Shown here piece after piece: positions 19,566 to 60,369 of a stretch of 64,000 bases of DNA; the first letter of the stretch is position 1; every line of letters begins with the position of its first letter. Under the pieces are notes generated by a model that did not search any database, was not told the DNA's origin, and saw nothing but the letters and a program-made list of their open reading frames with translations. The DNA comes from Conchocele bisecta. Lineage: Eukaryota; Mollusca; Bivalvia; Lucinida; Thyasiridae. Both the position numbers and the translations under genes were made by a program. Location: positions 12,822,042-12,886,041 of the forward strand of contig CM055272.1 in assembly GCA_029237695.1 (NCBI GenBank), written 5' to 3'.

Positions 19566-19724
19566 CTACACAAACATGTCGAAAAAAGAATTTTCCTGAT
19601 TTTTCCCATTGTCCGATTTTTTTCCTGTAACAGTCACATAGGTATACTATCAGAAAATGCACAGCGACAAAATGTTTCAATTTGTCCTGGGTTGACCTAT
19701 ATACATCTCAGATTGACTGGTCTA
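19566..19724 (-). repeat. Right terminal inverted repeat of element A
   Basis: Inverse of 13,761-13,912, ending GACTGGTCTA at 19,724. It is slightly longer than the left copy because of extra bases at about 19,697-19,712. Confidence 0.85.
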
Positions 19725-26340: not shown

Positions 26341-26343
26341 TAT
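26341..26343. repeat. Target-site duplication TAT, left, of element B
   Basis: TAT directly precedes TAGACCGGTGGGG; TAT also directly follows the inverted right end (49,371-49,373). Confidence 0.82.
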
Positions 26344-26870
26344 TAGACCGGTGGGGGAATTAAATAAGAGCTCTAGAAATCGATGCATGTAGGACGGAAT
26401 GTTAATGACAGGCACTCTAGTGGAATATATTCAGTAGACCATGCTGCAAAAAGAACCTGGGGATGCTATGCGGATTTTGACCTCTAGAGGTCAGAAAAAT
26501 CAATAAATCAAGATGACCGCCAAATATTTACTGGTTTCCATAAATGTGCTCTCAAATTACCTCCTTTAATAATTTTCAAGTCCAGATTCGTGTATCTGGA
26601 TTCAAGAAGTCATTAGCCTCGCATTAAAGTGTCATTTGATAATATATTAATTCTCATAAATCCAAGATGGCCGTCAATATTTTGTCCTAAATTTGCATTC
26701 TGATGATATTGTAATCAATTTTAAAGTCCAATATAAATTGTCTAGATGAAATAAACCACGTTCTTAACTGCTGAAAAATAACTACACTCATTCGTGAGTA
26801 TTATGCTGTTTATCTTCTTTCGAAATCTCCATGGATGAATATTGGACACCATTGTGAAGTATGCCACCTA
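26344..26870 (+). repeat. Left terminal inverted repeat of element B
   Basis: Starts TAGACCGGTGGGG and pairs with 48,835-49,370. Landmarks are GTAGGACGGAATGTTAATGA, GACAGGCACTCTAGTGG, AAGATGACCGCCAAATATTT (26,511) and CCAAGATGGCCGTCAA (26,663). Confidence 0.87.
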
Positions 26871-27665
26871 ATGACTTTTTGTAAACTTAAAAAAGTGACA
26901 TATTTGGCAAAATTCAACAAACGTGCGTTGTTAAACAGATGGGATGTAGTAGTTTTATTATATACATTCGAGACATGTGCATATCTGTGATTTTCTAAAA
27001 TGTATAATTAAATGCTGTTTGACAATTTCAAGTAAGCCCACTGCATTCCTAATTACCCCACCCACTATTTTTTAATGGCAAAACGGACATATTGAGTTTT
27101 GTTATTTCATGGGTGGAAGTACATTTTAGCGTGCCTATTAAATGACTACATGCGATAGTTTTACATTTGAAAGTGCATTTCCTGTGGTAAAACGTTAATA
27201 GAAAGGAACTTTGTACTTATTACCCCACTCACTAGTTTCACAATGGATACTCTATGCATTTGTGTTTCACAAATTTTCTTCGCTTCAATTTAAATGTATT
27301 ATATGAGTAAATAATGATCTCAACAGGCATATTATCTTGAACTGTCAACATACCAAACCCATACAGTCTAAGTGTACATTAATTGTGTACGTTGCCCGAG
27401 TGCCACGATAAATAAGTGCGGGGAATTTATGAACAACAACAACAACAACATAGTTGGTAGCCGCTTTCAATTCCAAAAATAAATGGGTCCCACACACACA
27501 CCACTGGTACTCAGTAATATTGTATATCAATTAGCCACTGTTTCATTTATTTTGTAACCCGACTAGAAGTTTCCTCAGTGCATCATTTTTTGTAAATAAA
27601 TGTTTGGTCCGATGCAGAGATAGTCCGATCCGACCAAGTTCGAACCGATGCCATTTCTAAGGGGA
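26871..27665. other. Internal non-coding part of element B
   Basis: AT-rich, no genes. It has TTACCCCACCCAC (27,053) and TTACCCCACTCAC (27,219) motifs resembling those in element A, and an AAC microsatellite at 27,433-27,450. Confidence 0.45.
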
Positions 27666-27775
27666 TGGATGGACAGGGGGGTGGGGGGGGGGGGGGTCAT
27701 GTCTCCCACGTTCCTCCCCCACCCCCCCCCCCCCCCCACCCCCCCCCCCACCCCCACCCCCCCCCCCCCCCCTCC
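27666..27775. repeat. Poly-G / poly-C tract at the 5' junction of LINE N8
   Basis: A G-run (about 27,676-27,695) is followed after about 20 bases by a C-rich tract to 27,772. It could fold on itself or form a quadruplex, or reflect an assembly or sequencing artefact. Proline- or glycine-rich frames across it are not genes. Confidence 0.9.
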
Positions 27776-27784
27776 TATATTGTC

Positions 27785-28985
27785 TGTCTTTGTTTTGTCA
27801 AAGATCTTGAATAGTGTGGCAGGAGAGCCAAATAATTTGAAGCGTTTACGCTCTGGTGACCTCATAGAAGTTGAGAGGAAGAGCCATGCAGAGAATTTAC
27901 TTCTCTGCAACAAATTCTTGGACACTCCTGTCGACATTCAGCCACATAAATCATTGAACAGTTGCAAGGGGGTTGTCCGATCACCGGAGTTTGCTCATGT
28001 AACTGAGCAAGAGGTGATCGAGCAACTCAAACCGCAAGGAGTCGCTGATGCCAGAAGGATTAGTAGAAAAGTCAATGGACAACTAGTCCCTACCAATACC
28101 TTCGTTCTGACTTTCAACCTCACTGTACTACCGAAAGAACTCAAACTCACCAGATAGTTACTGATTACAGTTGATCCATATATACCAAACCCGTTGCTAT
28201 GTTACAACTGCCAATTGTACGGCCACCACAAAGACAAATGTAAGAGAAATATTGCATGTGCACGCTGTGGCATTGCCAAGCAGAGTAATGAAAACTGTGT
28301 GGAGGCCGAACATTGTGTCAACTGTAATGGTAACTATTCGGCATATTCAAAAGACTGCCCGAAGTGGAAGATTGTTGAAATGCCAACAACTCCTATCCCG
28401 GGCTTTTCTTACGCTTCGGCTGCAGTCTCTCGCAAGCCCAGCAGAAGTATTTCAACTCAAACGGACGTTTCTTGGAAACCAGCTGAACACCCCACTATAA
28501 CGTGGACCTATAATACGCCACACTAAAAGCCTTCCACATCTAACTCATCGTCTGCACAGACAAAATCTCCCCGAGGCCGGAGCCCAAAGGCCTTAACATC
28601 AAAACCTTCTTAGGAAGGCAAAACCTCAAAGGTCACGCCTTCCAAAAGCCCTAAAGGTCGGGCTTAAAATACCTTAAAACAAATCACAGCCGTGTCTCCT
28701 CTGCGATCACGGCAAGGGCCGGATGACAGATCGGCCTCTCCACTACCACTCAGGGGTAGGCCCACTGCCATGGAGAGGATCCCTACAAAACCGCCCAGGA
28801 AAGGGTCTGATGACCCTGGATCGCAGAAAGGGTCTGATGACCCTGGATCGCAGAATGGGGCAGACGGCCCCATTCCAGTTAAGAAAAGGTTTGAGTCGTT
28901 GGACTCGATGGAGACTGAAGAGTCTTCTGACATTCCAACTCCCAAGCCTGTTTCGCCCCCCAAACCCATACTTCCACCTACTTAA
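27785..28985 (+). pseudogene. LINE ORF1 (gag-like, CCHC), copy N8
   Basis: The first recognisable residues are SVFVLSKILNSVAGEPNNLK; the start codon and about the first 100 residues seen in N1 are missing. KSLNSCKGVVRSPEF and the RISRKVNGQLVPTN segment follow. A TAG near 28,156 interrupts the frame just before the knuckles. CYNCQLYGHHKDKC, CARCGIAKQSNENC and CVNCNGNYSAYSKDCPKWK sit at 28,200-28,370. About 20 residues present in N1 after PKWKIEKE are deleted here. The Pro/Ser/Asp-rich tail contains a near-perfect duplication of GSDDPGSQ (28,803-28,855). It ends three bases before the ORF2 ATG. Confidence 0.83.
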
Positions 28986-28988
28986 AAT

Positions 28989-31900
28989 ATGGATATTGTT
29001 ATCCAATGGAACTGTCGAGGAATTAAAGCAAATCGTGATGAATTAACAATTGTATTAACTCAATACAACCCCATTGCTGTTTGTCTTCAGGAAACATTCC
29101 TGAAAGTTGACGATACATTTTCTTTTAAATCGCATGCACGATACAGTAAGTGTTCAGATAACGCTGAACGCGCATCTGGTGGAGTCTCAATCCTTGTTAA
29201 TTTGAGCACCCCACATAGTCTGGTGAATCTTAACACTAATTTTCAGGCTGTGACCGTTAGTATTACGATGTACAAGACTATTACATTATGTTCTATCTAC
29301 ATTCCACCATATGCAGTCCTGTTAAAATCAGAACTAGATAATCTTGTCTCTCAGCTCCCTTCGCCTTTCATTCTCCTTGGCGATTTTCATGGACATAACA
29401 AACTTTGGGATTGAAAGACACAAACAAAAAGGGGGAACTTATTGAAAATTTTCTTTCCGATCACAATCTCAGCATTTTTAATGACAAATCGAGCACATAT
29501 TTACATCCCGCAACCGGTTCATATTCCTCTCTGGATTTAACTCTGTGTCATCCTTCTCTGTATTTAGACTTTACGTGGAAAGTTGGTGACGACCTATGTG
29601 GGAGTGACCACTTTCCTGTCTTCTTACAGAGTAATGGACCACCATCCAATGACAGAGTCCAGAGGTGGAAATTACATAAAGCCGATTGGGACACATTTCG
29701 TAATATGTGCATGATTGAACTAGATTTTGATCCCTTTCGAGATGCGGAAGATCCACTAGAACACTACGTTTCCCTTTTACACGATATTGCAGAAAAGACA
29801 ATACCAAAAACCTCGGCAAAGCCCAAACGTGTCAATAAACCATGGTTTGACGAAGAATGCAAACAGGCAATGACTGCTCGTAAGCAGTCTATTCGTCAAA
29901 TCAATAATAACGCAACAGCAGATAATTTAAATGCTCATATAATTTTTAGAGCGAAAGCTCGACGCACAATTAAAGCTAGCAAGAAAAAGACTTGCAGATA
30001 TTTTGTCTCCAAGTTGAATTCGCGATCTAAAATGAAAAGAACATGGGACATGATTCGTAAGATAAACGGTAAAGGTAAATCAACTATCAATCACCTCAAC
30101 AAAGCAGGACATACAGTATCTTCCAAAACAGACATTTCAAACACATTAGCAGATACCTTTTCCAAGAACTCCTCATGTAATAACTATTCTGAGGAGTTCT
30201 TGAAGGTGAAATCTGAGCAGGAGAAAACTAAACTTAATTTTAATTCAGACAATTCAGAACATTACAACGCTCCTTTCTCTATGAGGGAATTAAAAGCTTC
30301 CCTCGAGAAAGCACATGATACATCAGCAGGCCCTGATGATATCCACTACCAACTGCTTAAACATTTACCTGAACACTCTTTAGACAACCTCCTTGAACTA
30401 TTTAATACCATTTGGGAACAAGGCGTCTTTTCGCCTTCATGGCGGGAAGCTACAATCATACCTGTTCCAAAACCGGGCAAGGATCACACCGACCCATCAA
30501 GTTACCGTCCCATCGCACTTACTAGCTGCGTATGTAAAACCATGGAACGAATGATTAACGACAGGCTTGTCTGGCTTTCTGGAATCCAATGGACTGATAT
30601 CTGAGTATCAGTCTGGATTCCGTCGCCAGAGAAGCACTGCCGATAATCTGATTAGACTCGAATCATTCATTCGAGACGGGTTTGTTAACAATGATCATAT
30701 AGTTGCCGTATCTTTTGACCTAGAAAAGGCATATGACACGACGTGGAAGTACGGGATTATGAAGGACCTTCATGACCTCGGTCTGAAGAGTCATCTCCTT
30801 GATTTTATTTCTAATTTTTTGAAAGACAGACAATCCCAAGTCAGAGTCGGCACAACCCTTTCCGATCCCCTTGCACAATAACTGGGTGTACCGCAGGGAA
30901 GTATATTGTCTGTTACCCTTTTTAACATTAAGTTGAATAATACATGTATTGTAAAATGCCTGCAACCAGGTGTTGACTGTTCTTTATATGTCGATGCTTT
31001 TTTAAAATGTTACAAATCAAAGAACATGCAAACTATTGAGCGCCAATTACAACTGAGCCTCAATAAAATTAACAAGTGGGCCGCAGAAAATGGCTTTAAA
31101 TTTTCGAAATCTAAAACTAACTGCATGCATTTTTGCAAAAGCGGTCTTCACGCTGATCCCGAACCTAAACTGGGATCACATCCCATACCAGTTGTTCGGG
31201 AGCAGAACTTTCTTGGTCTTATCTTTGATCTTAAACTCAATTTTAAACCTCATTTACGATACTTGAAAGCTAAATGCCAGAAAGCACTCAACTTAATGCG
31301 AGTGGTAGCAAATCATGACTGGGGTGCAGACCGAAAGGTGCTGCACCGCCATTACATCGCACATGTTCGCTCAAAACTAGACTATGGATGCACTGTATAT
31401 GGATCTGCCAGTAAATCCGATCTTCGGACGCTCGCTCCAATACATCACCAAGGCATAAGACTCTGCATGGGTGCATTCCGTACGTCTAACGCACAAAGCT
31501 TATATGCCGAAGCAAATGAACGTTCAGAACCTCCACGACAGACGCACCAAATTGTCTTTGCAATACGCGACTAAACTACATTCAAATCCATCTAATCCAG
31601 CTTATAACACTGTCTTTCATCGAACTACAGATGCTGTATTCGATAAGAAACCAAGCTTCAAGCCACCATTCGGCAAGAGAATGGATCCTTTGATACACGA
31701 TGCTGGCTTGGATCTGGATCACATTGCGAAATACGCTGTTCCAGATACTCCACCGTGGCAGTTGGAGCAGCCCAAGGTGATCTTCGATCTTAGTCAGCAC
31801 ACGAAAGCAACAACTGATCCATCCATTTTTACAATACATACACTCCGCTTTTTACTGATGGTTCAAAGGTCGGGGACCGGGTAGCATCTGCTGCCGCTGT

Positions 31901-32642
31901 TCCCGAGGGAGATCTTCAATCGAGACTCCCAGACAAATCTTCGATATTTTCTGCGGAATTGACGGCGATTTTACTTGCTCTTGATTTCGCGAAAATATCT
32001 TGGAGAAAGCAATTCATTTTATTTTCCGATTCATTATCTTCACTACAAGCTTTGTACAACATGAAGCTTAAACATCCACTTATCCGCCAAATCATGGAGC
32101 TACACCATATTTTACTTTCGTCTGGCAAGGACATTATTTTTTGTTGGCTCCCCAGCCATACTGGTATCAAGGGCAATGACAGGGCAGATAGTGCTGCCAA
32201 GGCCGCCCTGGAGCTACCGACCTCTCATTTTCCTGTTTGCTATCATGATTTTAAATCATCCATCAACTCATTCATCTCCGATACAATGCAGACCCAGTTG
32301 GATCTGCTCACAGATAATAAACTTCATGCTGTGAAACCGACTTTGGGCGAATGGACTCCTGGCTACAGACATGTACACCGGGATGAAGTTGTCCTTAGTC
32401 GATTGCGCATTGGACATACACGACTAACGTACTCGTATATGCTCAAAGGTGAGCCGCGTCCATGGTGTATTCCATGCCACAGCACATTTACCGTGCAACA
32501 CATCCTACTGGACTGTATCGATTTTGCCGATATTCGACGCAAACAATTCAGTGTTACTTCACTTGCGGAGCTATTCCAGGTGGAGAACATTGAAGGTTTG
32601 CTTCGCTTTCTCCATGAAACCAACTTGTATCGGAAACTTTAA
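28989..32642 (+). pseudogene. LINE ORF2 (EN, RT, RNase H, Cys/His), copy N8
   Basis: Domains in order: endonuclease (28,989-29,640; QWNCRGIKAN, CLQETFL, GDFHGHN, GSDHFPVFL), linker (29,680-30,230), RT (30,240-31,300; GPDDIHYQLLK, SYRPIALTS, GFRRQRST, VSFDLEKAYDT, GVPQGSILS), post-RT region (31,260-31,840), RNase H (31,850-32,230; FTDGS, SDSLSS, GNDRADSAA) and the C-terminal Cys/His domain (PCHSTFTVQHILLDC). Frameshifts lie near 29,412, 30,570, 31,520 and 31,840, and a stop at 30,880. The YVDD box is changed to YVDA (near 30,990), which removes a catalytic Asp. The longest piece is 399 codons (29,405-30,604). Confidence 0.87.
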
Positions 32643-33041
32643 TTTTATCATTGTATACATGTTTCTCATTTCTATAATTTTATAATTCTATTCTATACAC
32701 GTTTTTCATCTATATTGTTCATCATATTAATATTTTTACCCTAATCACATATAGCATACTATTTTACTATTATTTTTTATTCTTCGTCGACATTGCTTGT
32801 CCCTAAATGATACTCTTTTGTGTTGATGGGCCGTTAAGCACCATTCCTTTCCATTCCTACCTCGCCCCTACCGCCCCTCATCTGCCACCTCCCCTTCTAG
32901 AAACGAACCCTGTACATCTAGCATGCTTAGTGTTCGTGCTATTCAGTATTGTCATTCAAAATAATGTTTCCGTAAATGTGTCCCACCCCCTACATTGATG
33001 TTTTACCGGGGGCTTTACCCCGAGAGGCTGGCCCGCTTTAA

Positions 33042-33269
33042 CCCTTTCACCGCCAAATAACTTAATGGACACTTTTCCATGCTAATGCTGTCAAGCGATT
33101 TCATTGGTCCATTCAACTTTTTGATAGCGGTGTTTTATTAAAACAGATGATAATTAATTAATTATCGTCAAACAGTGCAGATCCTGATGAGACGGCTCAT
33201 TATGAGCCGGCTCATCTGGATTTACACTGTGTGCATACGTTCGAATAGTCGCCTATGGTGGCGAAAGGG
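33042..33269. mobile_element. piggyBac-like MITE (TTAA-flanked), copy 1
   Basis: A 228-bp element flanked by TTAA (33,038-33,041 and 33,270-33,273). Ends read CCCTTTCACCGCCA and, inverted, CCCTTTCGCCACCA. The core holds a hairpin GAGACGGCTCAT/ATGAGCCGGCTC. The second copy is at 60,848-61,068. TTAA duplications and a CCC start are typical of piggyBac-mobilised elements. Confidence 0.82.
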
Positions 33270-33273
33270 TTAA

Positions 33274-34017
33274 CAGCAGCAAAGTTTAATATCCTGTTAT
33301 TCGGGGGAGGCTGAAACATGAAGACAGCGATTGCGATGATGGATATATGTGCCTACTATTCAGTACACTCCTAAAAGCTACGCATGTATGGAATGTCAGA
33401 CATACAGAACTAAACTAATCAAAGCTACAAATATAGCTCTAATTATTAAATTTATGTATACCAAATTATTTAGACCTAGGTTGAAATCAATTACTGCTAA
33501 TTCAATTTAGCGTGTGGTGAAATAAATCAATGTTATATTTTTATTTCATCCAACATTACTTGAAATGAAAGTTAGAGCTAGCATTAATTGAGTTTCACAT
33601 TGATCTAAATGACTTAGAACTATCATACAATGTAGATTTAATTCAATTAGACCTACTTTTTGTCGCGCCCGCTTGCGGAAAGCGCGATATAGTCGGCACT
33701 TTGGCGTACACGTACGTACGTACGTACGTGTGTCCGGTTAAAGTTTTTGGTTAAAGTTTTTTGTTATACTGTATCTCTGCAACTGCTTCGCCCATTACCT
33801 TGAAACTTCACATGGGTGTTTATCATCAATGTCACGCCCGCTTGTGGAAAGCACGATATATTCGCCACTTTGGCCACTTTGGCCACTTTGGCGTACTTCC
33901 GTCTGTCCTTACGTCCGTGTATCCTGTTAAAGTTTGTTGGTTTAAGTTTTTTGTTTAAAGTTTTTCCAAGGCGCGACATGCAGGCTGCGGTCATCTAGTA
34001 ATTGATAGAGCTAGCTT
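33274..34017. repeat. Spacer with two ~170-bp tandem units
   Basis: Units starting TGTC(G/A)CGCCCGCTTG lie at about 33,661 and 33,830. Both contain GGAAAGC(G/A)CGATAT, a CACTTTGG-type segment and GTTAAAGTTT. A GTAC-type tetranucleotide run sits at 33,709-33,728, and CACTTTGGC is repeated three times near 33,867-33,892. No gene is seen from 33,274. Confidence 0.75.
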
Positions 34018-35499
34018 TAGGGGTGTTTCACAGTTATATAGGGAATTTGTATGTCACATTAGTAAAATAATAGATCAAATACAATTCAATGTTTTCATGC
34101 AAAAATATTAACTTCGATATTTTGGCCATATTGTGTGAAAACAGTTTTTGGATCAGGTTCTTTGTTTTGAAACTGTGCTGCCTAAAACACGCCTGGCTGC
34201 ATGGGCCTACAGACACTGCATTTAAATATATAACATGGGCTTGTAATAATGTACAGTGTGTATTTATGATGTTTATAGTGTTTTTGTAAAGAACTGGTCA
34301 GGAACAAACTAATTTCACAATGTTACAGTTATTTTGAGTCGATATATATATAATATAATACCTTTCAAAAGTGTCTGATGTGCATCGCCAAATAGCATGC
34401 GCTTGCATATAGCAATACTACCTGCAATCATGTCACTATATATACAAAATCAATTCTTAATATAGTACCTTCATCGGTTAATGAAATAAAACACATAGTG
34501 AAATTACAATTGCATGTGCTACAGATAAATATGACGTTACACCAACTTCGGCAGAGGGGCTACAGACACTACACATGTTATTATATCTGATAATGCCCAT
34601 TTTACCACAATTAATTGTGTGCAATTAACTTGGTTATGATTTATTTCATGCACAGGTAGTAAGGTAGTTATTAAGCAGTGAAAAAGCAATTACCTGACAA
34701 AACATGTCTTATTTATGTTTTCTAACATATGTTACTTAGACAAAATTGTCAATTATATGTGTTCCCAAATTACGGTAATTGGCTAAAGTGAGTCAGTCAG
34801 TGTCAGAGGTATAGAACTACAATACCATTGTATTATTAAGCTAATCATCTTTCTTATATGACAGTGAAAATGACAAGTAGTGCCATTTTGTGAAATCACA
34901 TTATGGGGCTACAGACACTACCAATTGTACATGTAACTACATGTGGTGCGGTATGGTACAACTATGCTATTATATAACATTTGTGTACACTAAATTGTCA
35001 CAGACACTACATGTACATAAATGTCACACATATTGTTGATATAAGCAGACACTTTGTTTATGAAAGGAGGCAACTTTTTATTAACAGTAAACTAGTAACA
35101 CCAACAGTTGAACACTTTAACAATTAACACCATACATTGTCAGTTGTTTTGTGCATTTTGTGTCACTTTGAAAGTTTTAGAAAAAACACTTAACATGCAC
35201 ATTATTATTTAAACACAAATAATTCCTCCTGTTAGTGCTTTTCTGTGAAAGTGTTGTTCTGGAAGAATGTCAGTCACACTATTCATTGGTTCCTGTGATA
35301 CATCGGACCACGTGGGTGGTGGTCGGGCGAACGAGACTGCGTAAATTAACGGTAGGGGTTCCTTCTTAATAGGAATCACGATTTGCCTGGTTTGGACCTC
35401 AGGTACGTTTTTATCTTTGGCTCTTTAGTTACCTGGGAGTTGAATTGGGTTATTGCCCATTATAAAAGTAGTAAGATTATTACTGATACTACTGTTTTT

Positions 35500-35752
35500 G
35501 GGAGGGGCTAAGTGATTCTGGTGTGGCGAGGACCTGGCATCAGATCAGGATTATTCTGATTTCAGGGCTGAATATGCAGTTTTGTTAATGTAAATATTCA
35601 GTTCTGATTTTGGGATTTTCCCCCCATTTGTATATGTACTTGAACATGTACAGGTAATATATGGGATTTAGTACTAAACCCATTGACCCGGCCTTAAATG
35701 ACCTTAGCTGTTGATAGGCCGTTAAACCCAAACAAACAAACAAACAAACATC
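35500..35752 (+). mobile_element. SINE copy 1 (AAAC-tailed)
   Basis: From CTAAGTGATTCTGGTGTGG through TTTCAGGGCTGAATA and GACCTTAGCTGTTGATAGG to GGCCGTTAAACCC and an AAAC repeat tail at 35,727-35,750. The same sequence order is found inverted at 61,612-61,836. Confidence 0.75.
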
Positions 35753-36354
35753 GGGCCACACATGCACTCCACCTTTCTGGGCCATAAACGAAATTTTGGC
35801 TTTGCTGGTTTATGTGTCCTGGTCAACAACCTGTGCATAGAAAAGTGTGTATTATGCAGTGCTTCTCGTGAACAATATATCATTACATCATACATGTATT
35901 ATACATGATGCAGATGGGAGTGTGCAAGATAATCAAGAGCTATATCGGTCAACAACACCAAGTGGTCCCTTGGTGTGATGGTGCGTCAGTTATAGACATT
36001 AATTACTTCAAAAGAACATGTACTATCATGCTTATGTTGTATTATTTTGATACGATACTGTTTTGGTATGTGGTTTTCTATAATACCTGAGAGACACATC
36101 TCTCTTAGCTACTTGACTTCTAACCGCTGAGGCTGACTGAGACGTATCCATTTAACTTTCTTTATTAAACTGGTTAGAGCGTCTGCCTTCAATGCAACAT
36201 TGCAACATATTTGGCAGAGGCATGATCGTCTGCTGGTCTCTGAAACTCTACGGACTTGGATTGGTTAAAGCTTCCAAAAACTTGTGTAAGTCCCAATTTC
36301 ACGTCTGTGTTTTGTAACATGAATGTTTTAGACCTTGAGCCAGCAATAACCCCC

Positions 36355-36410
36355 TCCCCTCCCCCCCCCCCCCCCCCCCTCCCACCCCCCCCCCCCCCCC
36401 CCCCCCCTTG
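36355..36410. repeat. Poly-C tract
   Basis: A C-run of about 50 bases with two or three interruptions inside element D. Confidence 0.95.
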
Positions 36411-36517
36411 TGGGATTTTTGGTGAGTATGCTTTTCGGATTCAGTAGTCTATTGTCTATCAATGCTGCTTGTCTGCGCTCAAAAAGTCGCTGGATGAACA
36501 AATGGCGGCCATTTTAC

Positions 36518-37205
36518 AAGATGGCCTCCGAACAGTATTATTTTGTTTTATCAAGGACTGTTAACTTTCAGTCTAATCACTATTAACCAGGTAAATTGCT
36601 ATAATTAAGTCACAATTTGAATGTAAAATGATTTAGAATACATTTTACATTTAATTACATCCGTAAATGGCAATATATTTCAAAATGGCTGCCGAAATAG
36701 TCTGTTTTACAATATATTTCTGCGAGTCGTGTGTTGTTAATAACACATACAGACATTCATAAAGTTGAAACACACATACATTGCTTTTCCTCACAAATAA
36801 ATGGAAAATACAGGAGATAGTCATGCAATAGCCTTCCACAATTGTCAGAACAGTCAAAATGGCCGCCAAAATGTTCTTGTTTTGTTCTATTCTTTACTGT
36901 ATGAGTTGTTATAAACAGCATTTCATGCACCTATTACATGTATACATACCAGTTTGAGGTATACAAATCAAATCATTTGATAACATATACATATCCAGGT
37001 ATACAATGCTATAATATATATTCAAAATGGCCGCCAAAATGATCAGATGTTCAATAATATTGATGCAGTTTTCAATAATTTAACAACACTAACATTGTTA
37101 TGTATAGAGTGTGATATTCTGCCTATTTTCAAAGACAAATACGGATGTATTTCAATCAGTTTGAGTATTGAAGAACTGTTTCAAAGTGTGTCCAAAATGG
37201 ATTGA
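36518..37205 (+). repeat. Five-unit ~170-bp array with ATGGCCGCC core
   Basis: ATGG starts at 36,521, 36,685, 36,859, 37,027 and 37,197, spaced 164, 174, 168 and 170 bp. The shared core is CAAAATGGCCGCCAAAAT; the rest is AT-rich and only weakly alike. Confidence 0.8.
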
Positions 37206-38789
37206 ATGTTGACAAGGAATACAATGTTATTATCGTTAACGAGCACACTTCTGATAATTAAGCGAGCATGATGATCATTGGCCAAGGCAGTTTGTAGTAT
37301 GGTATGATGAATGACATGGGTATGCTTATTGCAAACATGCATAGCTTTCACCCACATTAAGCATCCCGCATATGTCTTCACATGTGACAATAATTTAAAT
37401 TAACCCTTGGTCGTGAGTTGGATTGGTAAATATATACAATACATAGTAACGATATGTAAGTCATGCAGTCACTGATGTAATCAGTTCTACATTAACCACT
37501 ACATGTGCTGTATTCATTCTTCTTATTAAACATTATTGAAACTAATACACCAAATTGTACATGTAGTTGAAAACACGACACTGTTTAAGTACCTGATGCC
37601 AATTAAGTATTGTCACTGTTCTAATTTACCTACAAATATATATACATTTGTATATAATTTGCACTGCCTCGTGGGCCATTGTAAATTGGTAGTGTCTGTA
37701 GCCCCTGTCACACTTGGTTAGAACATAATCATGTTCAACCATTTAAATGTGTAAACAGTTAATCCTATCATAGTTATTTAACAATAGACTGCTTATGGAA
37801 GACTTTAAGCCATTAATATGAGCTTCGTATGTACACTAACGGATAACACTGTGATGATTTTGAATGATTTCAATTGTGCAAAATCATGGAATTACTGATT
37901 TTTCTTCTTTCGAATGCTTTGATAACTAATTCTGGTTGTTTATTCACAGTGGAGCATGATTTCAAGATGTAAACATGTAAAGACTGTGTACATAAGGTCC
38001 AAATGGCTTTAATATACTGGGTATTATGTAGGGGCTACAGACACTGCAAGCTACCTAGATAAATATTGATGGAATTGCTGCCACATGTCTGCTCCATAAT
38101 CTAAGTTGGCTAGATGCTTGTATATCTGTTGTTCTTGTAGATCAGAAAAATGGAGCCAAATGATAGTCATGAACTAAAATATAAAAAATAGCCCTAATTG
38201 CAAATGGGGGCTACAGACACTACGGAATACATGTGTTCAGAATATTTTTGATATTTTATATGCAGAATATTTGGATGTATTTAAGTTAATATATTGAAAG
38301 TATTATATATGTCAGAATTGTAGTATATATTTTTGACTGCATTCTCACAGTTAAATTGTCAGTATGGGTATGCTAATAAAAATTGCAAAAATATAACAAA
38401 GACCTATTTTGAGGAAGTTATGACTATGTTGTGGCTTTGCTATATAGTGCGGAAAGAAATCGAATAAAATACAGAGCACATACCTCATTACCAATACAGA
38501 CATATATATTGATGATAAATTATGTATATATCGAATATAGCTCAGTAAAGTTTAGGTAATTTTAAATGACACAATATAACTATGAAAAAAATACCATTTT
38601 TCAACATTATAATTATTCCTGTGTCAAAACCGCTCAACGTACAGAACATTATTATATATCGTTAGAAAGCTTTCACCGAGTTATATTCAGATAAAATATA
38701 TACAAAGACACACACACAAATTAACATGTATTTAATACATAAACAGGAGAAATCCTGTTTTCCCTATATAACTGTGAAACACTCTTTTA

Positions 38790-39235
38790 ATTATTTGAGC
38801 TTCTGTAGATTTGGCGTTTCATACACTTGGTGCATGGTTTCTTACATTAGCTTGTAATTTCAGGAATGACGTCGTGATGGGTTGTCATTATACTACTTTA
38901 CCCAGCGGAGCTGGCAGAGTGCACGACGGCATGGTGTAGATCTGCTTTACATATTATACTGTAACATTAGCCTGCATGAATGACATTGTTATCCAGCAAC
39001 CTGTCTACAACTATCGGCATCACAAATATGTGCATGATGTAGTTTGGAGCCCATATAACAGTGCGGCTGTAGATACCTGCTTTAGTAGATTAGTGCTGCT
39101 ATATACTAACACTTAGCACATACGTTGTTCACTACCACATACATCGCTCGCATTAGTTGACCAGTGATGAGACTAACCCTGCATGAATGACACCGTTGTA
39201 AGTATGCACTAACTGTAATTTACCAAATACTAATA
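38790..39235. other. Non-coding lead of the element B gene
   Basis: Holds two GCCTGCATGAATGACA/CCCTGCATGAATGACA copies (38,970 and 39,178) and nearby repeated words such as GATTAGTGCTG. It is probably the 5' untranslated or promoter part of the element B gene. Confidence 0.4.
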
Positions 39236-40320
39236 ATGGAGCCTGCCGTTGTGGTGAACAGAAAACTTTCTATTGACAAATGTACTAACGGTAACATGTG
39301 TATCATATGTCAAAAAGGATTCCGTAGTAAGGCAAAGCGGAAAATGGGGGAAGATGGAATTGGACGCTTAAGAGAGGTGGCAAACGAGCGATGGCAGATT
39401 CAGGATTACGAAAACATTGATGTTATAGACCGCATTAGAGACATGGACCGTAATAATATGTTGGAGAAAAACACTACATTGATACATATATCGTGTTATG
39501 GTTCGTTTACCAGTTCATCCCATATAGATCGGATTAGGAAGAAGAAACAGAAAGAACAACAGGAACTTGAAAGTAAATGTGCAGGAACAAGCAGTGAACC
39601 CGTTAGGGTATCAAGAAGTGATGTCCCGCCATGAGATAAAAACCTGTGTATGTTTTGCCAAATCGACGCACGAAAACATACATGTAAAGTAATGGAATTA
39701 GATGTTTCAAAAATAATATTAAATGCATCAACACACGATTTTGTAATGCGCCAGAGACTAGCAGGAATTATCGACTTGGTTGCAGCAGATGGGATATATC
39801 ATCCTCAATATAAAGTTGAGTTTCTACGAAAAGTTGAAAAGAATGAAACCGGTGAGACTTCTACTCCAAAAGGAGTATGTGTCAATGCAGTTGTACGCGA
39901 ACTCAGGTGTGGGTTAGCACGTGGCCATGTGTATACGCTCGTGAATATTTGGGAACGATATTCATACAAACTTAGTGTTGAATTTGAAGTTGACGCTGGC
40001 TGCTACAAATATTGCAGAACCTGGTTTAAGGAAAATCTTGAGAAAACCTCTGCGGGGTGATTGAAATTGTCCCACAACTTGATACAAGTACACCACATAT
40101 TTTATTCGCTACAAAAGCAGCAACATGTAGTAGCTTGATACAGATCCTGAAAAACAAATCAGATGAAACTGACGAGAAAACAGCTGAGCAATGTCTACAA
40201 CCTATTGATACATCTGCTGAGGAATCTAATTTCATGATCGAGATTTATCGCACTGCAGCACGGCTACGAGCTGATATCTAAACAGCACCTACGTTTAACC
40301 GCTGCACAGGCATAACTAAA

Positions 40321-41811
40321 GTGAATGCATCAAAAGTTGTACCTGAACGACTTTATTTCTTCTACAGATGTCTTTGTTCTAGTGAATATGACAGCATGAT
40401 ACATGGGGAGGATGAGGAGGTTTGTGACAAAGAGGACAGTTCTATTCACAACAGCGCTATGAGTATGTCACAGTATGCTGTATTTGTTGTATCAAAGGGG
40501 CAGAAACTAACACCCAAACACATTGGGTTAGGTCTGTCCATTCACTTGACTACTAGATCAAAATCACTTGTCGAGCTGTTACACAGTGCGGGTCATTTCA
40601 TCAGTTATGATATGGTATGGCGTGTCGATACAAGTCTGGCTGCAAAGGAAATCGAAGTGCTGAAAGCTATTGAGACAAATAGCTTTATCCAGTTCGCTGC
40701 TGACAACATAGACATGATGGAGGAGACTCTTGATGGAAAAGGCACGGTTCATGCCACACAGATGGTCGTACTTCAGCGCGAACAGCACGAAGAAGTAGCA
40801 ACAAGTGATCTTATTCCCATTGGCACAGCAAGACCCCTCCAGTTTCCAGAGGAGTTCAACGAACTCAAATGTGCACCAGTTGGCCCTATCAGACAAAAAC
40901 CAACCTTCAGCAAGGTAGTAGAGATCAAGTGGTATGAACCAGAAAGATCTGTGTTTAATGTAGGGGATACCACTGACCTAGCATGGGTACATTCTCGAAT
41001 TGCTGGTTCGGAAGCTCACAGCGTACCGGCATGGACAGGGTTCAACAGCATAATTTCAAAGGTATTAGCAGAGAAAACGAATGTCGGGTACCTGCCCATT
41101 ATAAATGCACCGGCACACGAAGAAGACACACTTTTGACTGTGATAGACCGTTGTATACGCATTTCTGAAAAGGTCAACTGTAGTCAGTCTACCGTTCTAA
41201 CTCTTGATCAGCAATTATACTGCAAAGCCAACGAGCTGCAGTGGGCAAATCCTGAAGCATGTACATCACGTGTAATACGACTCGGTGGATTCCACACTGT
41301 ACTGAATTTCATGCATGCCATTGTCCAGCATTGTACAGACTCTGGATTGGCACATATTTGGGTTGAGAGTGGTGTCTTTGGAGACAACACAGCACAGAAC
41401 AACATATCAGCAAAGTTGTACAACAAGACGGTTCGGGCACACAAGTTAACGTACGAGGCGCTGTGGCGTGTAATGTGGGGAATGCTGGTCAATTGGGCTG
41501 AAGAGCATGACATGGCAATTGATACAGACATCATGGAGAAGGCTCATCCCGTGGCGGAAACGATGGACGATACAAGGGACATACCTGGCATGCGCGAATC
41601 GGTGGATATTCTCAGGGAAACATTGGATAGCTCTGGGTTGAAGGAGGTTCTTCGACAATTTGATCAGGAAAGGCCGGCTGTATTTACATATTGGCGTCAA
41701 TACATGGACATGGTCTCCATTCTATTGCAGTTTATCAGAGCAGAGGGAAGGAAACTGGAAACTCCACTTAGCCTCGTTTACAGCCATGCTCCAGTGGTTC
41801 GCCATATATGA
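40321..41811 (+). CDS. Uninterrupted 496-codon core of the element B gene
   Basis: A single open frame encodes the conserved family core. Recognisable stretches are FIQFAADNIDMMEETLDGKG (about residues 120-140), GDTTDLAWVHSRIAGSEAHS, VPAWTGFNSII, LPIINAPAHEEDTLLTVIDR, STVLTLDQQLYCKANELQW, RLGGFHTVLNFMHAI, DSGLAHIWVESGVFGDNTAQ and VRAHKLTYEALWRVMWGML, ending YWRQYMDMVSILLQFIRAEG. I recognise the pattern from many unnamed invertebrate proteins. The fold is unknown to me. The invariant LTxDQ and GGFH stretches with nearby acids could form an RNase H-like transposase centre, but that is a guess. Long openness amid damage suggests either relative youth or selection. Confidence 0.78.
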   Translation: MNASKVVPERLYFFYRCLCSSEYDSMIHGEDEEVCDKEDSSIHNSAMSMSQYAVFVVSKGQKLTPKHIGLGLSIHLTTRSKSLVELLHSAGHFISYDMVWRVDTSLAAKEIEVLKAIETNSFIQFAADNIDMMEETLDGKGTVHATQMVVLQREQHEEVATSDLIPIGTARPLQFPEEFNELKCAPVGPIRQKPTFSKVVEIKWYEPERSVFNVGDTTDLAWVHSRIAGSEAHSVPAWTGFNSIISKVLAEKTNVGYLPIINAPAHEEDTLLTVIDRCIRISEKVNCSQSTVLTLDQQLYCKANELQWANPEACTSRVIRLGGFHTVLNFMHAIVQHCTDSGLAHIWVESGVFGDNTAQNNISAKLYNKTVRAHKLTYEALWRVMWGMLVNWAEEHDMAIDTDIMEKAHPVAETMDDTRDIPGMRESVDILRETLDSSGLKEVLRQFDQERPAVFTYWRQYMDMVSILLQFIRAEGRKLETPLSLVYSHAPVVRHI

Positions 41812-42659
41812 TCATACGAATTATACAAGATGGGGAACCGTATACCTGGCTGACATGAGTGTTAAGTGACACACACCCAGATGTCTTCCGTGAGTTTATG
41901 AATGGAAACTTTGTTGTCAAACGATCGTAGAATCAGTTCAACCAAATCTCGACAGACCAGGCATTGGAACATGTGAAGAATAAGATATGCAAAGTTGCAG
42001 GAGGGTTGATTGGAATCACTCGGTCTGACAGTGCCAGAGACCGCTGGGGTTTGACTTTTAATGCAAGAAGTAGAATCGTTGAAGAAACATATTCCATTTT
42101 TCACATAGTTGTCGAACACCCAGATGTCACGATCAACAAAAAGGAAACGGGGTTTGCACGAATTACCAGAGACGAAACGGACGTACAAAAGATATAAGAA
42201 CAATGCAGCGCTTTGAAGTGTTTAAACAGGGTCAGCAATCCCTGGTGTCGCTAGCTAGTCATGATGTTGCCACTGACGACATTACCAATGCACTGCTCGG
42301 AGCCGAAACAAGAGGAAGGGAGAAACTACAAGACTTTGTCGAACAAAGGCTGCAGACACAAACCGTAGGCTTATATTAGACACTGCCAAAGTCTAGTTCA
42401 TTGACTTTCAAATATATGTACCTAAAAAAGGCAACGGCGAAGACAACAGAGAAGACCAAAGTATTGACAGCAGACAGAACTCTTCTTCAAAGGTTGCTTG
42501 TGGCCCAAGTATCTGGCAGGAAAATAGATATCTCTCGTCTAATGCAGCATGAATTATTCCCTGTACTACTTTCTTTGGCTGATACGGCAGTCAAATTGCG
42601 ACCAGCTAACACGTCTGTATTGGGGCACATCCTTCAGGCGGATGCATGCAGTGAGAAAA

Positions 42660-43400
42660 ACCCTCCAGCAAATGGTATGAAGACGTGCGCAATCATTGAT
42701 GGACAGTCATTTGTACAGGCAATCAGAAAAGCCAAAAGGGGCACACACATTTGGTGAACTTTCTGATGTGTTTGTGTCCTCAGTCTTCTTCAAGTATGTC
42801 AGAGGGGATTGTACTCGTGTATATGTCGTATTTGATAGGTATGACGTTCTGCCAATTAAGAGTGGAACAATGGATCGGCGGATGGGGACTGGCAGGAGAG
42901 CAATTAGACGCATAATCGAACATGGAGATGTTCCACTACCTTCAAACTGGTCGGAATTCATCAGCATGCCAGAAAACAAAGAGAATATTGCAAAGTTTCT
43001 GTCTGACGAGATCGTCAGAAAATCCCAGGATATTGATGACGAAATTATCACTGCTGGTGGATTTGAAGATGTTCGTGATGCCAAATCATCTGGACGGGAA
43101 ATATCAGCTCTCCATGCTGATCATGAAGAAGCCGACACGAGGATTGTTCTCCATGCTGTGGAAGCACGGACTCAACAGTTCCAGCGGACAATAGTAGCTT
43201 GCTGTGACACAGACATGCTCGTGCTGTTGCTCTACTTCAAAAACCTGCAGACCAATGAAGTATGGTTTCAATCAGGAACGTCAAAGAAGCGGAAATTCAT
43301 AGCTGTGCACAATATTAATATGACCAAGTGATTTCTTCCAGCATTCCACGCCTTGACTGGATGTGATACCGTAAGTCAATTATCTGGACACGCCAAGAAA
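42660..43400 (+). pseudogene. PIN-type nuclease region of element B
   Basis: In order: TCAIIDGQSFVQAI (Asp), VYVVFDRYDVLPIK followed by RR (Asp), HEEADTRIVLHAVE (Glu/Asp), CCDTDMLVLLLYF (two Asp), and after a stop at 43,329, FHALTGCDTVSQLSGHAKK. This is the same motif series as in element A, and the acidic positions are kept. A frame change near 42,757 and the stop at 43,329 break it. The H-x-x-x-GCDT motif aligns with the LLGCDY-type turn of FEN1. Confidence 0.72.
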
Positions 43401-43765
43401 TCATCTGCATGGCATGTCTTTCATAATCAGTTGGATTTGCTGGATGGGCTTGGTGTAGGGGAACCGTGTGAACAAGTGACAATGAACGCTGAGAAATGTG
43501 TGTGCAAACTATACTCCCCCTCAGATGATGTATCATCATCAGATGCACTGCGATGCAAATTGTTCATGAAAGAGAAATGCGAGCCGGAACATCTTCCACC
43601 TACATCTGATGCTGTAGACCTACACATAAAACGCGCACATTACCAGACGGCTGTTTGGTTATCTGCAGCGGAGCCAATACAGAACTTGCATTCTGCAATC
43701 GACTATGGGTGGTATGAATCCGATGGTGCCCTGAAACATTTGTTGATGCGAAAAGACGCAAGTCA

Positions 43766-43921
43766 TGCGTGGACATTCTGACATGCAATTGTAAAGAATG
43801 TGCGACGTCTTGATACACGTGCCCCTCTCACAGACTGAAATGTACCAGTGCTTGTGGTTGCAGTGGTGGTGCAACCTGCAGAAATCCATTGAATGGGGAT
43901 CGGGAGAGCGACAGTAAATGA
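43766..43921 (+). pseudogene. CXC (tesmin/TSO1-like) end of element B gene
   Basis: In a third frame the stretch reads CVDILTCNCKECATS, a stop, YTCPSHRLKCTSACGCSGG, then CRNP and a terminal TGA. Spacing of the cysteines matches a CXC module (CxCK...C...CxC...LKC...C.C). Family knowledge: CXC domains bind zinc and DNA. One stop codon and a frameshift relative to 43,353-43,781 show decay. Confidence 0.7.
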
Positions 43922-44649
43922 ATAGGAATCTATATGTGCCGTATTACAAAATTATTTTTGGCATATGATACAATTATGTGTAACAAGACTCGGCGACTAC
44001 ATGTAATAATCGGACACGTATATATGTAGTAATACATGCATTCAGGTACAAATGTTTACTAATATTCCCATACATGTACATTGAACCTCAGGAATGCATA
44101 GTGTTATTTGTTGCTCATATTCAACATCATAATAATATTTTGAAAATAAAACTGTAACAGGATACAAACTGTTCATAGTACTGAGATTTTCAAAATTCCT
44201 GAGTGCATATTTCGGGGTTGATATTTGGTGGCCATCTTGGATGTATGCAAACTATATACAACCAGGTTATACATTCATGGTATCCAAATGCTTTCTTGTC
44301 TTCAGAAACACCATTCCGGACTCATACGCTCGTGCTTTCATAACATAATCCTCCTTGAGCAAATACAGGGAAAGCATTTATTATTTGGTGACCATCTTGC
44401 TTATTGATTTTCTGACGTTTAAAGCTGAAACACCGCCTGACACTTTATTTTTAAGCAAAGTCTACTGAATGCATTATACTTGATGAGTGTTTACCCATCT
44501 GCCCATTTAAATGAATGTTGGAGCGAATACGGCTGGTAAAACACAAATTGTCCATAGTAATATTAGTGGGGGGGTGGGGGGGGGGGGTGGGGGGGGGTGG
44601 GGGGGGGGTAATTTTATAAAGTTCCGGTGTTATTATCCTTATTGTGCAA
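43922..44649. other. Internal 3' part of element B, with ATGGCC motifs and a poly-G tract
   Basis: Inverted GGTGGCCATCTTGG at 44,227 and GGTGACCATCTTGC at 44,387 are 160 bp apart. A G-run with T interruptions covers 44,569-44,608. No gene is visible. Confidence 0.55.
44647..44649. repeat. Target-site duplication CAA, left, of element C
   Basis: CAA directly precedes TAGTTAGGT at 44,650 and directly follows the inverted end ACCTAACTA at 48,626 (48,627-48,629). Confidence 0.78.
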
Positions 44650-44812
44650 TAGTTAGGTTGGTTAGGGCTATATTTAGAGATTACCGTTACCTGACTGATA
44701 AAAGCACCAAATTTGGCATGAGGCTTCCTTAGGGCATATTAATCAATGTTAGCCTAGGAGCCCTCCGGAGATTTTAACATAAGTACCAAAATTCAAGATG
44801 GCCGCCATCTAT
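44650..44812 (+). repeat. Left terminal inverted repeat of element C
   Basis: Pairs with 48,472-48,626. By eye about 80-85% identical, with a short indel near the outer end. Confidence 0.83.
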
Positions 44813-45544
44813 GGAATATAACACTTTTCTCCAGTCATGTGAGTCATAAGAAGACGAGATTGGTTTCCAAATATTGATTTTTAAGTCACTGAACATACTG
44901 AATCAGATTTTTACTATTGCAATTTTCACATGTCATGCCCATTATCATGACGAAATTCCAAGATGGCCACCAAAATCACCAAAAGATGTCTGTAATCTTT
45001 GTAAATTCGCATAGTTCTGTAAGGAAAATAGCAACAACTGATTTTAAATACACATTTCAAGCTTTTTATATAGTTTCGTGGTCCTATCATGCGTCTACTG
45101 TCTGTTCCAAGAGGATTGGTCAGTCGAGGATTCACTGGATGGGTACAGGGAGTCCTGACCCAGCCCTGTTCTTGGTAATTTTATCCACAATGTCCGAATA
45201 GTTGAATGAATTTGACGGCTGTAAATATCGCCCTGTTACCTTTATAATACGATGTGTTCATTTTGAATTGGCAGTTAAGACTCCGACAAACTGTACATCA
45301 AATACACCATCCCATTTCGGGCGGTGCCACAGAATATAAGCGAGGGAAGTTCCGCAACAACAACAACAACAAACAACAACAACAAAGTTTTGTTTCTACA
45401 AGAATTTTAAAAAATACAACAAATATGTTGTAAGGTAAAAACTGTAAATACTTAATGATACATGTATATGGATAGTGTCGAAATCATTTAATTTTACCCA
45501 ACGCCTTTGTAGTTATGTTAGGTGGTCTGCACACATAAATGGCC
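44813..45544. other. Non-coding left part of element C
   Basis: Contains a second CCAAGATGGCCACCAAAATC at 44,958, 165 bp from the one in the terminal repeat, and a CAA microsatellite at 45,356-45,384. The N-terminal half of the gene expected here is absent. Confidence 0.5.
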
Positions 45545-47875
45545 CTCTGGAATACACTGGGAGATGTATTGGATAGTTCCGGCTGAACAACGGCACTCAC
45601 AGATGCAGCAGTAGCATCCTCTGGCACAGCTAATTCATATCTCAAGGCAGCATGCTCGAACCAGGCATGCCCACCAAGTCACACTCTTGACCCTGCATAA
45701 TCTCCAGAAGGAGGCTTTAGTGCAGAGCGACGGACCCAACGAGTCTGTCATGGCTTGGAGAAACGACATGCTGAAGAAGAGTTCGACTTTCATGTACTGG
45801 GACTTGATCATGAGATATGAAACCCTAATTCTCATCTTCATCAGGGCTCACAGAGAATAATTTACCTCTCTATGTGGACGTCTTGGAGGTACTCACACCA
45901 GTTCTTTGCCTTGGATCATGTGAATTACTCACGGTGGGTGTCTGTCCACATCAGGGATATGAAGTCCTTGCCCGACACTATCAAGTATGAGTTTGAAAAG
46001 TGTTCTCATTGGGTCCTTTCCAAGACCACCAACAAGTTATCTACGATCCAATTTGACCAGGCTCATGAGCAGGAGAACAAGATTGTGAAAGGTTCGGACG
46101 GTACTGTTGGGCTTACAGAAAACGCCTTTCGACGGTGGATGCTCCCGAGGCGAGAGATGGCCAGATTGCTGAATCAGTTTGAGGAAGAATACCTTCCTGA
46201 TGATGACACAGAAATCCACCAAGAACTTTCAGCACCACGAGCAGGGTCTCTCGACACAGAAGACCTTCCAGCTACAGGTTACCAGCCTCTCCGAAACCAT
46301 CAGAAGAATGGGAAACCCATTCTTGGATGATTTCCCTGATCTAGTAACTCTCGATAATTGCAACTGTACAGACAAAGCAGTGTTAACCACAGTGCGCACC
46401 ATGGAAGATATAGGCAAGAACCAGTACCAGGAATTCGTCAAGAATGTACGCAGCCACTTTATCCATGACCCAATCAAGAGGAATTCTCTGGCACTCAACA
46501 CAAGGCAACATCTAAGCAGAGGAAGAAGATCAAAGTGCTTCAGAACAATGTGGCACTCTTTGGCCAGCTATACATATCCATGCAGAATCGTGAAGGTGAC
46601 TTGGCCGAGTTATTTGCACATGGGATACAGTCCTTCCCTCCTTCCCTCTCAAACTTTGGCAAGCTTCATCTTCCAGACACGAAGTCTGACTTGCTGCAAT
46701 GTATTAAGCAGCTCGGGCAACCAGTGCTGTCATCGTCCACTGCTTGCCCACTACCAGCGTCAGCTCCTTCCACGAGTATGCAGACAGGGTTTTCATACCA
46801 TACCTAGAGAAGCATCTACAGGCTGCCGCAAGGTTGGATGTTGTGTGGGACACACACCTGCCGGACAGTTTAAAGGAATCTACCCGGGAAGAAAGAGGCA
46901 AGGGCGTGCGCAGGAAAGTGTCTGGCGATACAAAACTTCCAGGCAATTTGGTGGACTTCCTCCGTGACCCAGACAACAAGAGGGAGCTGTTTTCCTTTTT
47001 GACTTCCAAGGTTGAAAAGTTCAACTGACCACCAGCCAAAGCTGTATATGTCACATCAGGGCAATCTATGACATATATTGGAACCAGCATCCCCATGCAA
47101 AGCTGCATTCATGAGCAGGCGGACACCAGGATCGTGGTTCATGTACTGCATGCACTGGAGCATGGAGAAAATACTATTCAAGTGCGTACAGTGTATACAG
47201 ATGTTGTAGTCATCCTTGCAGGCACATTCCATGATCTCATTGCGACTCAACCCTTGGCCGACATCTGGGTGGCATTTGGCATGGGCAAGAGTTATAGGTT
47301 TTACCACAACAACTTTATCTGTGCGAGCCTGGGGGTGCCACAATCACGAGCATTGCCTGTGTTCCACGCATTTTCAGGTAGTGACACAGCATCTGCCTTC
47401 AATGGCAAGGGCAAGTAGTCTGCTTGGCAGGCCTGCCAAGTCACCCCTTCCAGCGACTGGATCCCGACGACGACCCTTTCCAGAAGCTCGAGAGACTGAC
47501 TGTTATCATGTATGACAAAACAAGTCCTTTGAGCTCTGTCAACGAGACACGAAGGGAACTCTTCTGCCAGAAGAATCGAGCAATGGAGAAACTGCCACCC
47601 ACCAACGATGCGCTACTCCAGCATGTCCGACGCGCAGTGTATCAAGCAGGAATATGGACGACAAGCACACAAACACAGCTAGTGGTTCCTTCTCCACAGG
47701 ATATTGCCTGGACCAAGGTATCAGAGTCGTAGCTACCAGTTTGGGTGACAATTCCAGGTTTCCAAATCGTGCTCCCGCAAAGGGACTGCTCAAACTGCAA
47801 ATGTGTCGAAGCAAAACTGGACTGCTCACCACTTTGCAAGTGCAAATGTACTCCATAGAACATTGTAAACTGTGT
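45545..47875 (+). pseudogene. Element C gene: partial core, PIN-type nuclease, CXC end
   Basis: The remains start in the middle of the core: GDVLDSSG, a TGA where Trp is expected, TTALTDAAVASSGTANSYL, then LIMRYETLILIFIRAHRE, VNYSRWVSVHIRDMKSLPD, TIQFDQAHEQENKIVKGS and GLTENAFRRWMLPRREMARL (45,872-46,330). A nuclease-like part follows: RLDVVWDTHLPDSLKESTRE with RGKGVRRKV (46,744-47,028), HEQADTRIVVHVLHALEHGE, VYTDVVVILAG and FHAFSGSDTASAFNGKGK (47,068-47,418). The GCD of A and B is GSD here, and the DTD box is YTD. The end reads CSNCKCVEAKLDCSPLCKCK (about 47,789-47,860), a CXC-like cluster. Frames shift at least six times, and the N-terminal modules are gone. Confidence 0.8.
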
Positions 47876-48471
47876 GTTCCTGCAAGAGACATCACATAAT
47901 AATGTCACATATAATAATGTAAGAACTATGGCTGTTGTTATAAACACATTGCATTCCAACTCAACACCATGCAATGGTCTAGCCGGGGTGGTATACAATA
48001 TTAAGGTGCAAGTAGAACTACCCAGATACCTATTAATAAAGCATTACAGCAGTTACTTGCTTGAAAAATGAGTTTTGTCTGTACCATTTAAATTACTGTA
48101 GATGTTCTAATAAGTGACTGCCTTGGACATCTTTAATGTCATCTTCAAAATTGTGTCTGTAAGACACAGCAATGCCCCCATTGGTCAAATCAAGGTCACA
48201 TGCTACATATTAGTTGTGTAGCACACCACTAGGCAAGTATGTTGTGCAAGTTTGGTGGCTGTGGGTGTTGCAGTCGCTGAAAATACTTTTCAAACAAGGT
48301 GAACCAAACGTGTGACGGACGGACGGACACACACACGGACGCACGCAAGCACAGACAGACAGGTACAAAACATACTGCCCCACTGACATTCCGTCATGGG
48401 GGCATAAGTACATTGAGCGCACAGTCGGTGGATATTCGGCGCAAAAAAAACATTATTATTATGATTATTAT
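47876..48471. other. Non-coding right part of element C
   Basis: A repeat with ATGCCCCCATTGG (48,171) and its inverse CATGGGGGCAT (48,395), including GGAC/CACA-rich sequence at 48,313-48,362. Short inverted ends suggest another small inserted element. No gene. Confidence 0.5.
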
Positions 48472-48626
48472 TATATATGGCGGCCATCTTGGATTTTGGT
48501 GTTTTACATTAAAATCTCTGGAGGGCTCCTAGGCTAACATTAATTAATAGGCTCTAAGAGAGTCTTATGCCAAATGTGGTGCTTTTATCAGTCAGGTAAC
48601 GGTAATTTCACTATGCCACCTAACTA
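48472..48626 (-). repeat. Right terminal inverted repeat of element C
   Basis: Inverse of 44,650-44,812, ending CCACCTAACTA at 48,626. Confidence 0.83.
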
Positions 48627-48834
48627 CAAGAAGCACCCATCAACAATGCGTAACTTGTTGCATCAATTGTTTAATAAACACACTTAATCGTATGTGGCAG
48701 GAAGTTATTCATACATTTCCATGAAGTTCAAATACAACATGTCCCTAATATACAAAATAACTGCATTCTGTCTGCTTCACAATGTATATATTTATAATTT
48801 TGCTAAATATGCGATTTTTGAAATTTATAGAAAG

Positions 48835-49370
48835 TTATCGGTTGACATATTTCAAACTGAAGTAAAATATTCATCCATGGAGATTTCGAGAGTAGATAAA
48901 CAGCATAATACTCATGATAGAGTGTAGTTATTTTACAGCAGTTATGCAGATGATTTATTATATATAGACCATTCATTTTGGACTTTAAAATTGATTACAA
49001 TATCATCAGAATGTAAATTTATGACAACATATTATCTTTTGGCGGCCATCTTGGATTTATGAGAAATAATATATTATCAAATGACATTTTAATGCGAGGC
49101 TAATGACTTTATGTGTCCAGATACACGAATCTTGAAACTTGACTTGAAAATTATTAAAGGAGGTCATTTGAGAGCATATTTATGGAAACCGGTAAATATT
49201 TGGCGGCCATCTTGAATTATTTATTTTTCTGACCTTTAGAGGTCAAAATCCGCGTGGCATCCCCAGGTTCCTTTGTCAGCATGGGATACTGAATATATTC
49301 CACTAGAGTGCCTGTCATTAACATTCCGTCCTACCTGCATCGATTTTTTATTTTTTTCCCCACCTGTCTA
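48835..49370 (-). repeat. Right terminal inverted repeat of element B
   Basis: Inverse of 26,344-26,870. Contains GGCGGCCATCTTGGAT at 49,041 and GGCGGCCATCTTGAAT at 49,202, and ends CCCCACCTGTCTA followed by TAT. Confidence 0.87.
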
Positions 49371-49538
49371 TATCGCCTAATGAAAATAGATTTCCAGCTT
49401 AGACACTAGTTACATTATTTAATCTATATGAACTCAATTTGTACAAAATCTAACTTTGTTTTCCAGTATTATGGACATTTATTTCACCAAACCCGTGTAA
49501 TTGTGTTACACTTCTGCAAGTAAAGTATACTTTTCTTC

Positions 49539-60368: not shown

Positions 60369-60369
60369 G

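Follow-up and report, generated by a model that had tools for sequence, protein, structure and literature searches.

Two inverted sequences separated by 23 kb in the genome of the bivalve Conchocele bisecta raise the question of whether they are the ends of one very large DNA transposon or the outer limits of a more composite structure. They lie in a 64,000-nucleotide stretch of contig CM055272.1 (GenBank assembly GCA_029237695.1, positions 12,822,042 to 12,886,041), hereafter the window, in which all positions are counted from the first nucleotide. An earlier note on this stretch described a 23-kb DNA transposon, here called element B, that hosts later transposons, one of them its own relative. 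The locus is indeed best read as a single DNA transposon with ends at 26344 and 49370 that contains later arrivals, one of them a relative. B itself is real, old and well delimited, a member of a known superfamily; what fills the 23 kb is a nest of ordinary elements in a good state of preservation, not a giant transposon. Very likely, B is an old cut-and-paste element of AcademX type, within the Academ superfamily, that later became the landing site of the other elements, most plausibly in the order reconstructed below; this assignment draws on two features, the nuclease and the duplication length, as compared with the description of AcademX.

The left inverted repeat of B (26344-27040, plus strand), delimited by alignment to the right repeat, starts with TAGACCGGTGGGG, and the right inverted repeat (48684-49370, minus strand), delimited by alignment to the left one, terminates in CCCCACCTGTCTA, so that the ends proposed in the earlier note are exact to the base. 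The two repeats are 88.1% identical over 528 aligned sites (Kimura two-parameter distance, K2P, 0.130), in agreement with the length of about 530 bp given previously. Identity amounts to 89-95% in the first four 100-column blocks of the alignment and drops to 83% and then 75% before the likeness is lost at ~700 bp. The match is far above chance, with a local alignment score of 870 compared with a maximum of 53 among 60 base-composition shuffles. The TAT that had been noticed on both flanks is present as a directly read target-site duplication, at 26341-26343 on the left and at 49371-49373 on the right. The chance of matching TAT alone at the limits is ~1/64, and the bases farther out differ between the two sides. 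When a profile of both B ends was compared with the 64-kb window using nhmmer, there was a single other strong match, at 44483-44199 (E 3.8e-23), the next-best one having an E of 0.0034.

The span of B is 23,027 bp, and the description of a 23-kb transposon holds for this span. It does not hold for the size of the transposon, since 13,828 bp of the span are accounted for by a long interspersed nuclear element (LINE; 5,078 bp), element E with one copy of its duplication (4,770 bp) and element C with one copy of its duplication (3,980 bp). Subtraction of these three insertions leaves 9,199 bp, which is the upper limit for B itself. If the gene-bearing element D (27222-44575) is nested within B and is subtracted along with C, B itself comes to ~1.7 kb and has no gene of its own. 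For curated bivalve Academ elements, a published survey gives a mean length of 5,565 bp (PMC10294476).

The transposase gene inside B, which belongs either to D or to B, is decayed (39236-43921, plus strand). It consists of a DUF6589-type transposase part, a FEN1/XPG-like nuclease part and a Cys-rich tail, and is broken by stops and frame changes. The nuclease of Academ elements is termed XPG-like. In the Pfam comparison, DUF6589 was found in 15 of the 30 aligned relatives and not in the window frame itself, and there was no Academ label. A sequence search of PDB with one profile (A2) yielded nothing at E 0.1, and no relative was found in viral contigs. A decayed relative of the same gene is carried by element C (44650-48626, plus strand), which was delimited by alignment and by its duplication, CAA at 44647-44649 and 48627-48629. 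The inverted repeats of C are 85.2% identical (K2P 0.168, 162 sites); both its TAG..CTA inverted repeats and the CAA duplication had been reported correctly.

The insertion reaction can be seen most directly outside B, in the sister element A (13761-19724, plus strand; 5,964 bp), which has TAG..CTA ends, contains a decayed gene of the same family, matched by 169 of 194 retrieved proteins, and is flanked by TTA at 13758-13760 and 19725-19727. Element A is located within a LINE copy. When its flanks are joined with one TTA, the resulting sequence matches the LINE copies at 2634-1263 (92.9%) and 27824-29199 (84.3%), and both alignments cross the junction without a gap. These two paralogous empty sites in the same window make A a clean natural experiment, showing directly that such an element duplicated 3 bp on insertion; B and C have the same flank pattern.

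The duplication length bears on the superfamily assignment. According to a published account, AcademX elements have duplications of 3 or 4 bp and AcademH elements of 9 or 10 bp, a difference related to the nuclease and the helicase, and Polintons have 6-bp duplications (PMC10045372). The duplications of B (TAT), C (CAA) and A (TTA) are each 3 bp long, within the AcademX range and outside that of AcademH, and an XPG/FEN1-like nuclease is encoded in the coding region. The elements described here resemble AcademX in having a FEN1/XPG-like nuclease and a Cys-rich tail joined to the transposase gene, in the 3-bp duplications and in the inverted ends. Unlike AcademX, B has inverted repeats of up to ~700 bp, a second, inner pair of end-like units, and a span widened to 23 kb by later insertions. 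With Maverick/Polinton elements, B shares the long span between long inverted repeats; however, it is flanked by TAT only, a 3-bp and not a 6-bp duplication, and no Polinton protein was detected among the 14 window frames, out of 47 listed, that were given to Pfam. By this assignment, a DDE transposase with the FEN1/XPG-like nuclease would have excised B at its TAG..CTA ends, and B would have been joined to cuts staggered by 3 bp, giving rise to the TAT duplication.

The strong match of the B-end profile points to a further relative, here called element D; an element of that name appears in the earlier note without coordinates. The D described here has a clear right end (E 3.8e-23) and a weak left counterpart, 27222-27332. 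The right end (44187-44575, minus strand), identified by its likeness to the B repeat, has an uncertain terminus at ~44554-44575; its alignable part, 44201-44483, is 64% identical to the left and 63% identical to the right repeat of B. The match (44483-44201) is oriented as a right end and is located shortly downstream of the stop of the transposase gene. The probable left counterpart (27222-27332, plus strand, terminus uncertain) is an inverted match to 44575-44475 that was reached by none of 300 dinucleotide shuffles and, without the G tract, by 1 of 300 shuffles and none of 200 random window pieces. This match ends where another repeat starts (27333-27773, with a second copy at 53698-53207), and for this reason the left end of D was probably cut by the insertion of that repeat. 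The left match is not resumed in the stretch 3' of the LINE (32857-33600), where 141 of 300 shuffles reach the score. Three other regions, each set against three ends, gave nine pairings, the best being 27050-27715 with the right end of D (reached by 1 of 100 shuffles); it is in this region that the left counterpart lies. On balance, we favor D (~27.22 to ~44.57 kb) as a separate nested relative and not an inner part of B.

Two other candidates for the ends of D were rejected. With each of the three known ends, the region 36408-37300 scored above 100 of 100 shuffles, yet it was discarded as the left end once the shared motifs were masked, when 35, 49 and 22 of 200 shuffles reached the score; this region lies within E. 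The C- or G-rich tracts near 36.35 and 44.57 kb, considered as an inverted repeat of D, have similar tracts at 27.7 and 53.2 kb. There are four such tracts of ~41-58 bp, at 27716, 36350, 44568 and 53203, three of which are within B. Separately, a weak direct repeat that starts with ATTACCCCACyCACTA (27049-27151 and 27216-27312, 167 bp apart; reached by none of 300 shuffles) is sited between the left repeat of B and the probable left end of D.

The remaining large insertions are of other kinds. The LINE, already recognized in the earlier note, shows Pfam matches for endonuclease, reverse transcriptase and RNase H at 27779-32856 (plus strand; the limits are alignment ends); it is probably 5'-truncated and is at a K2P distance of 0.067-0.094 from the three other copies compared. 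Element E (34020-38785, no strand assigned) has 26-bp inverted ends that are alike at 24 of 26 positions and contribute an exact 23-nt inverted pair, is flanked by TTTA at 34016-34019 and 38786-38789, and includes a second exact inverted pair of 22 nt nested inside. No reading frame of at least 90 codons was found in E, and no match in the 64-kb window spans the junction obtained by joining the flanks of E or those of C. It may be that E is the element that had been called D. Six GG[GC]CTACAGACACT motifs are scattered over E (window 34204-38208) in mixed orientation, some of them ~350 or ~175 bp apart.

Within E, there is a SINE-like repeat (SINE, short interspersed nuclear element; 35312-35748, plus strand) with a second copy at 62025-61614, an A- and C-rich tail and an imperfect direct repeat at its ends (11/13, equalled by 5 of 500 random pairs). 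Its 16-nt tail motif, GTTGATnGGCCGTTAA, occurs five other times in the window, always at a LINE 3' end. Judging by these sequence features, the repeat looks like a SINE rather than a TTAA miniature inverted-repeat transposable element (MITE). It is the sole candidate found for the TTAA MITE that had been placed inside B, which is therefore not confirmed as described; another stretch could be meant.

Taken together, these elements suggest the following order of events. B would have come first, as a short element of ~1.7 kb without its own gene, and would have then become the landing site for others. Next, the gene-bearing relative D (~27.22 to ~44.57 kb) would have inserted into B, and subsequently the LINE, E (carrying the SINE-like copy) and further repeats would have entered D, with the related C settling beside its right end. 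The LINE, E and C arrived after the B sequence existed, and D probably did as well. Nesting gives the arrival order inside B and does not date the last move of B itself; the previous claim that B is older than C, D and the LINE accordingly holds for arrival within B and not for the date of B's own insertion. The divergences of the inverted repeats (0.130 on 528 sites for B and 0.168 on 162 for C) are no independent proof of a greater age of B either. Several observations weigh against this reconstruction. The transposase fold match is below significance, and the left counterpart of D is weak and only ~110 bp long. No target duplication was found for D, and CCCCAC occurs just outside both inner ends in inverted orientation, which would also suit longer arms of B. 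The joined flanks of B, too, gave no match spanning the junction within the 64-kb window.

The gene at 39.2-43.9 kb could be B's own, a possible but doubtful alternative under which B would be autonomous, up to ~9.2 kb long, with two end-like units per arm, the outer one used and the inner one diverged. The presence of inner units in both arms, inverted, would fit this explanation, as would the lack of a duplication marking a separate D and the 9,199 bp left once the LINE, E and C are removed. However, the inner right end is equally distant from both B ends (64% and 63%), as for a separate family, the outer ends of B are much closer to each other than to this inner end, and 9.2 kb exceeds both the bivalve Academ mean of 5,565 bp (PMC10294476) and the 5,964 bp of the sister element A. 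Another alternative, quite unlikely, is that the unit is illusory and each B end is left over from a different damaged element, the two belonging to one family and lying in opposite orientation. In its favor, the ends have diverged by 12%, no further copy of B was seen in the window, and the window is rich in inverted pairs of dispersed repeats (n=269), whereas TAT is found at both limits and the end pair is oriented as in one element; furthermore, no close second end accompanies either B end, contrary to expectation for two small complete elements. Finally, B could have moved here as a composite that already held some passengers, given that nesting alone leaves the last move undated and that the inverted repeats of C are at least as diverged as those of B (0.168 against 0.130). 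We consider this very improbable: the divergence of the LINE from the compared copies (0.067-0.094) is less than that between the B ends, and the figure for C comes from 162 sites only, hence a weak difference. Read as one old transposon opened up by later arrivals, the locus illustrates how insertion after insertion pushes transposon ends apart until the pair becomes hard to recognize; the nest by itself is no surprise in an animal genome rich in repeats.

The ends of B, C and D also share an internal motif. The pattern CAA[AG]ATGG[CT][CT][AGT][CT]C has 12 occurrences in the window, whereas 50 dinucleotide shuffles gave 0.2 on average and never more than 1; the B, C and D ends hold eight of these sites, and the other four are in an array within E (36517-37035, plus strand), where a motif search finds four CAARATGG-type motifs 164-174 bp apart. 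The core, CAAGATGGC, has eight matches, seven in the B, C and D ends and one in the E array; allowing one degenerate base raises the number to 13, including two outside the ends and the array (34890 and 49906). Its reverse complement is the YY1 consensus GCCATCTTG, and the core is contained in CAAGATGGCCGCC. The sites (26509-26675, 44227-44399, 44794-44971, 48479-48491 and 49041-49214) all point inward in the ends of B, C and D, at 166 and 320 bp from the left end of B (one of these a looser variant), 157 and 318 bp from its right end, 145 and 310 bp from the left end of C, 136 bp only from the right end of C, and 155 and 315 bp from the right end of D, counted from 44553. They are common to these ends although the C repeats are otherwise poorly alignable to those of B.

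In the lancelet ProtoRAG, a YY1 site in the inverted repeats affects transcription and recombination (PMC7481187). The feature in common is a site of YY1 type, GCCATCTTG, in the inverted repeats; in contrast to ProtoRAG, the transposase family is a different one, and there are mostly two sites per end, ~160 bp apart, a spacing that may equal one nucleosome. By analogy, it is conceivable, albeit on balance improbable, that the AcademX-type families of this genome keep a host-factor switch, with a putative YY1 site, CAAGATGGCCGCC, ~150 and ~315 bp from the terminus. Binding of YY1 there would, as in ProtoRAG, govern either transposase expression or the pairing of the ends, and if borne out in other copies, this would be a second transposase family linked to the host control known from that system. 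Against its generality, element A has no such site and the right end of C has only one. Among the open-licence papers searched, none contained both whole words Academ and YY1.

There was no Rfam match at gathering scores, and ARAGORN detected no tRNA in the window. A direct repeat of ~540 bp, 83% alike, occurs on both sides of B, ~2.2 kb to its left (23575-24111) and ~170 bp to its right (49539-50081). Numerous copies and fragments of the same LINE family, in either orientation, populate the region 1-24000, and a tandem array of ~20 copies of a 43-bp unit is located at 59512-60372.
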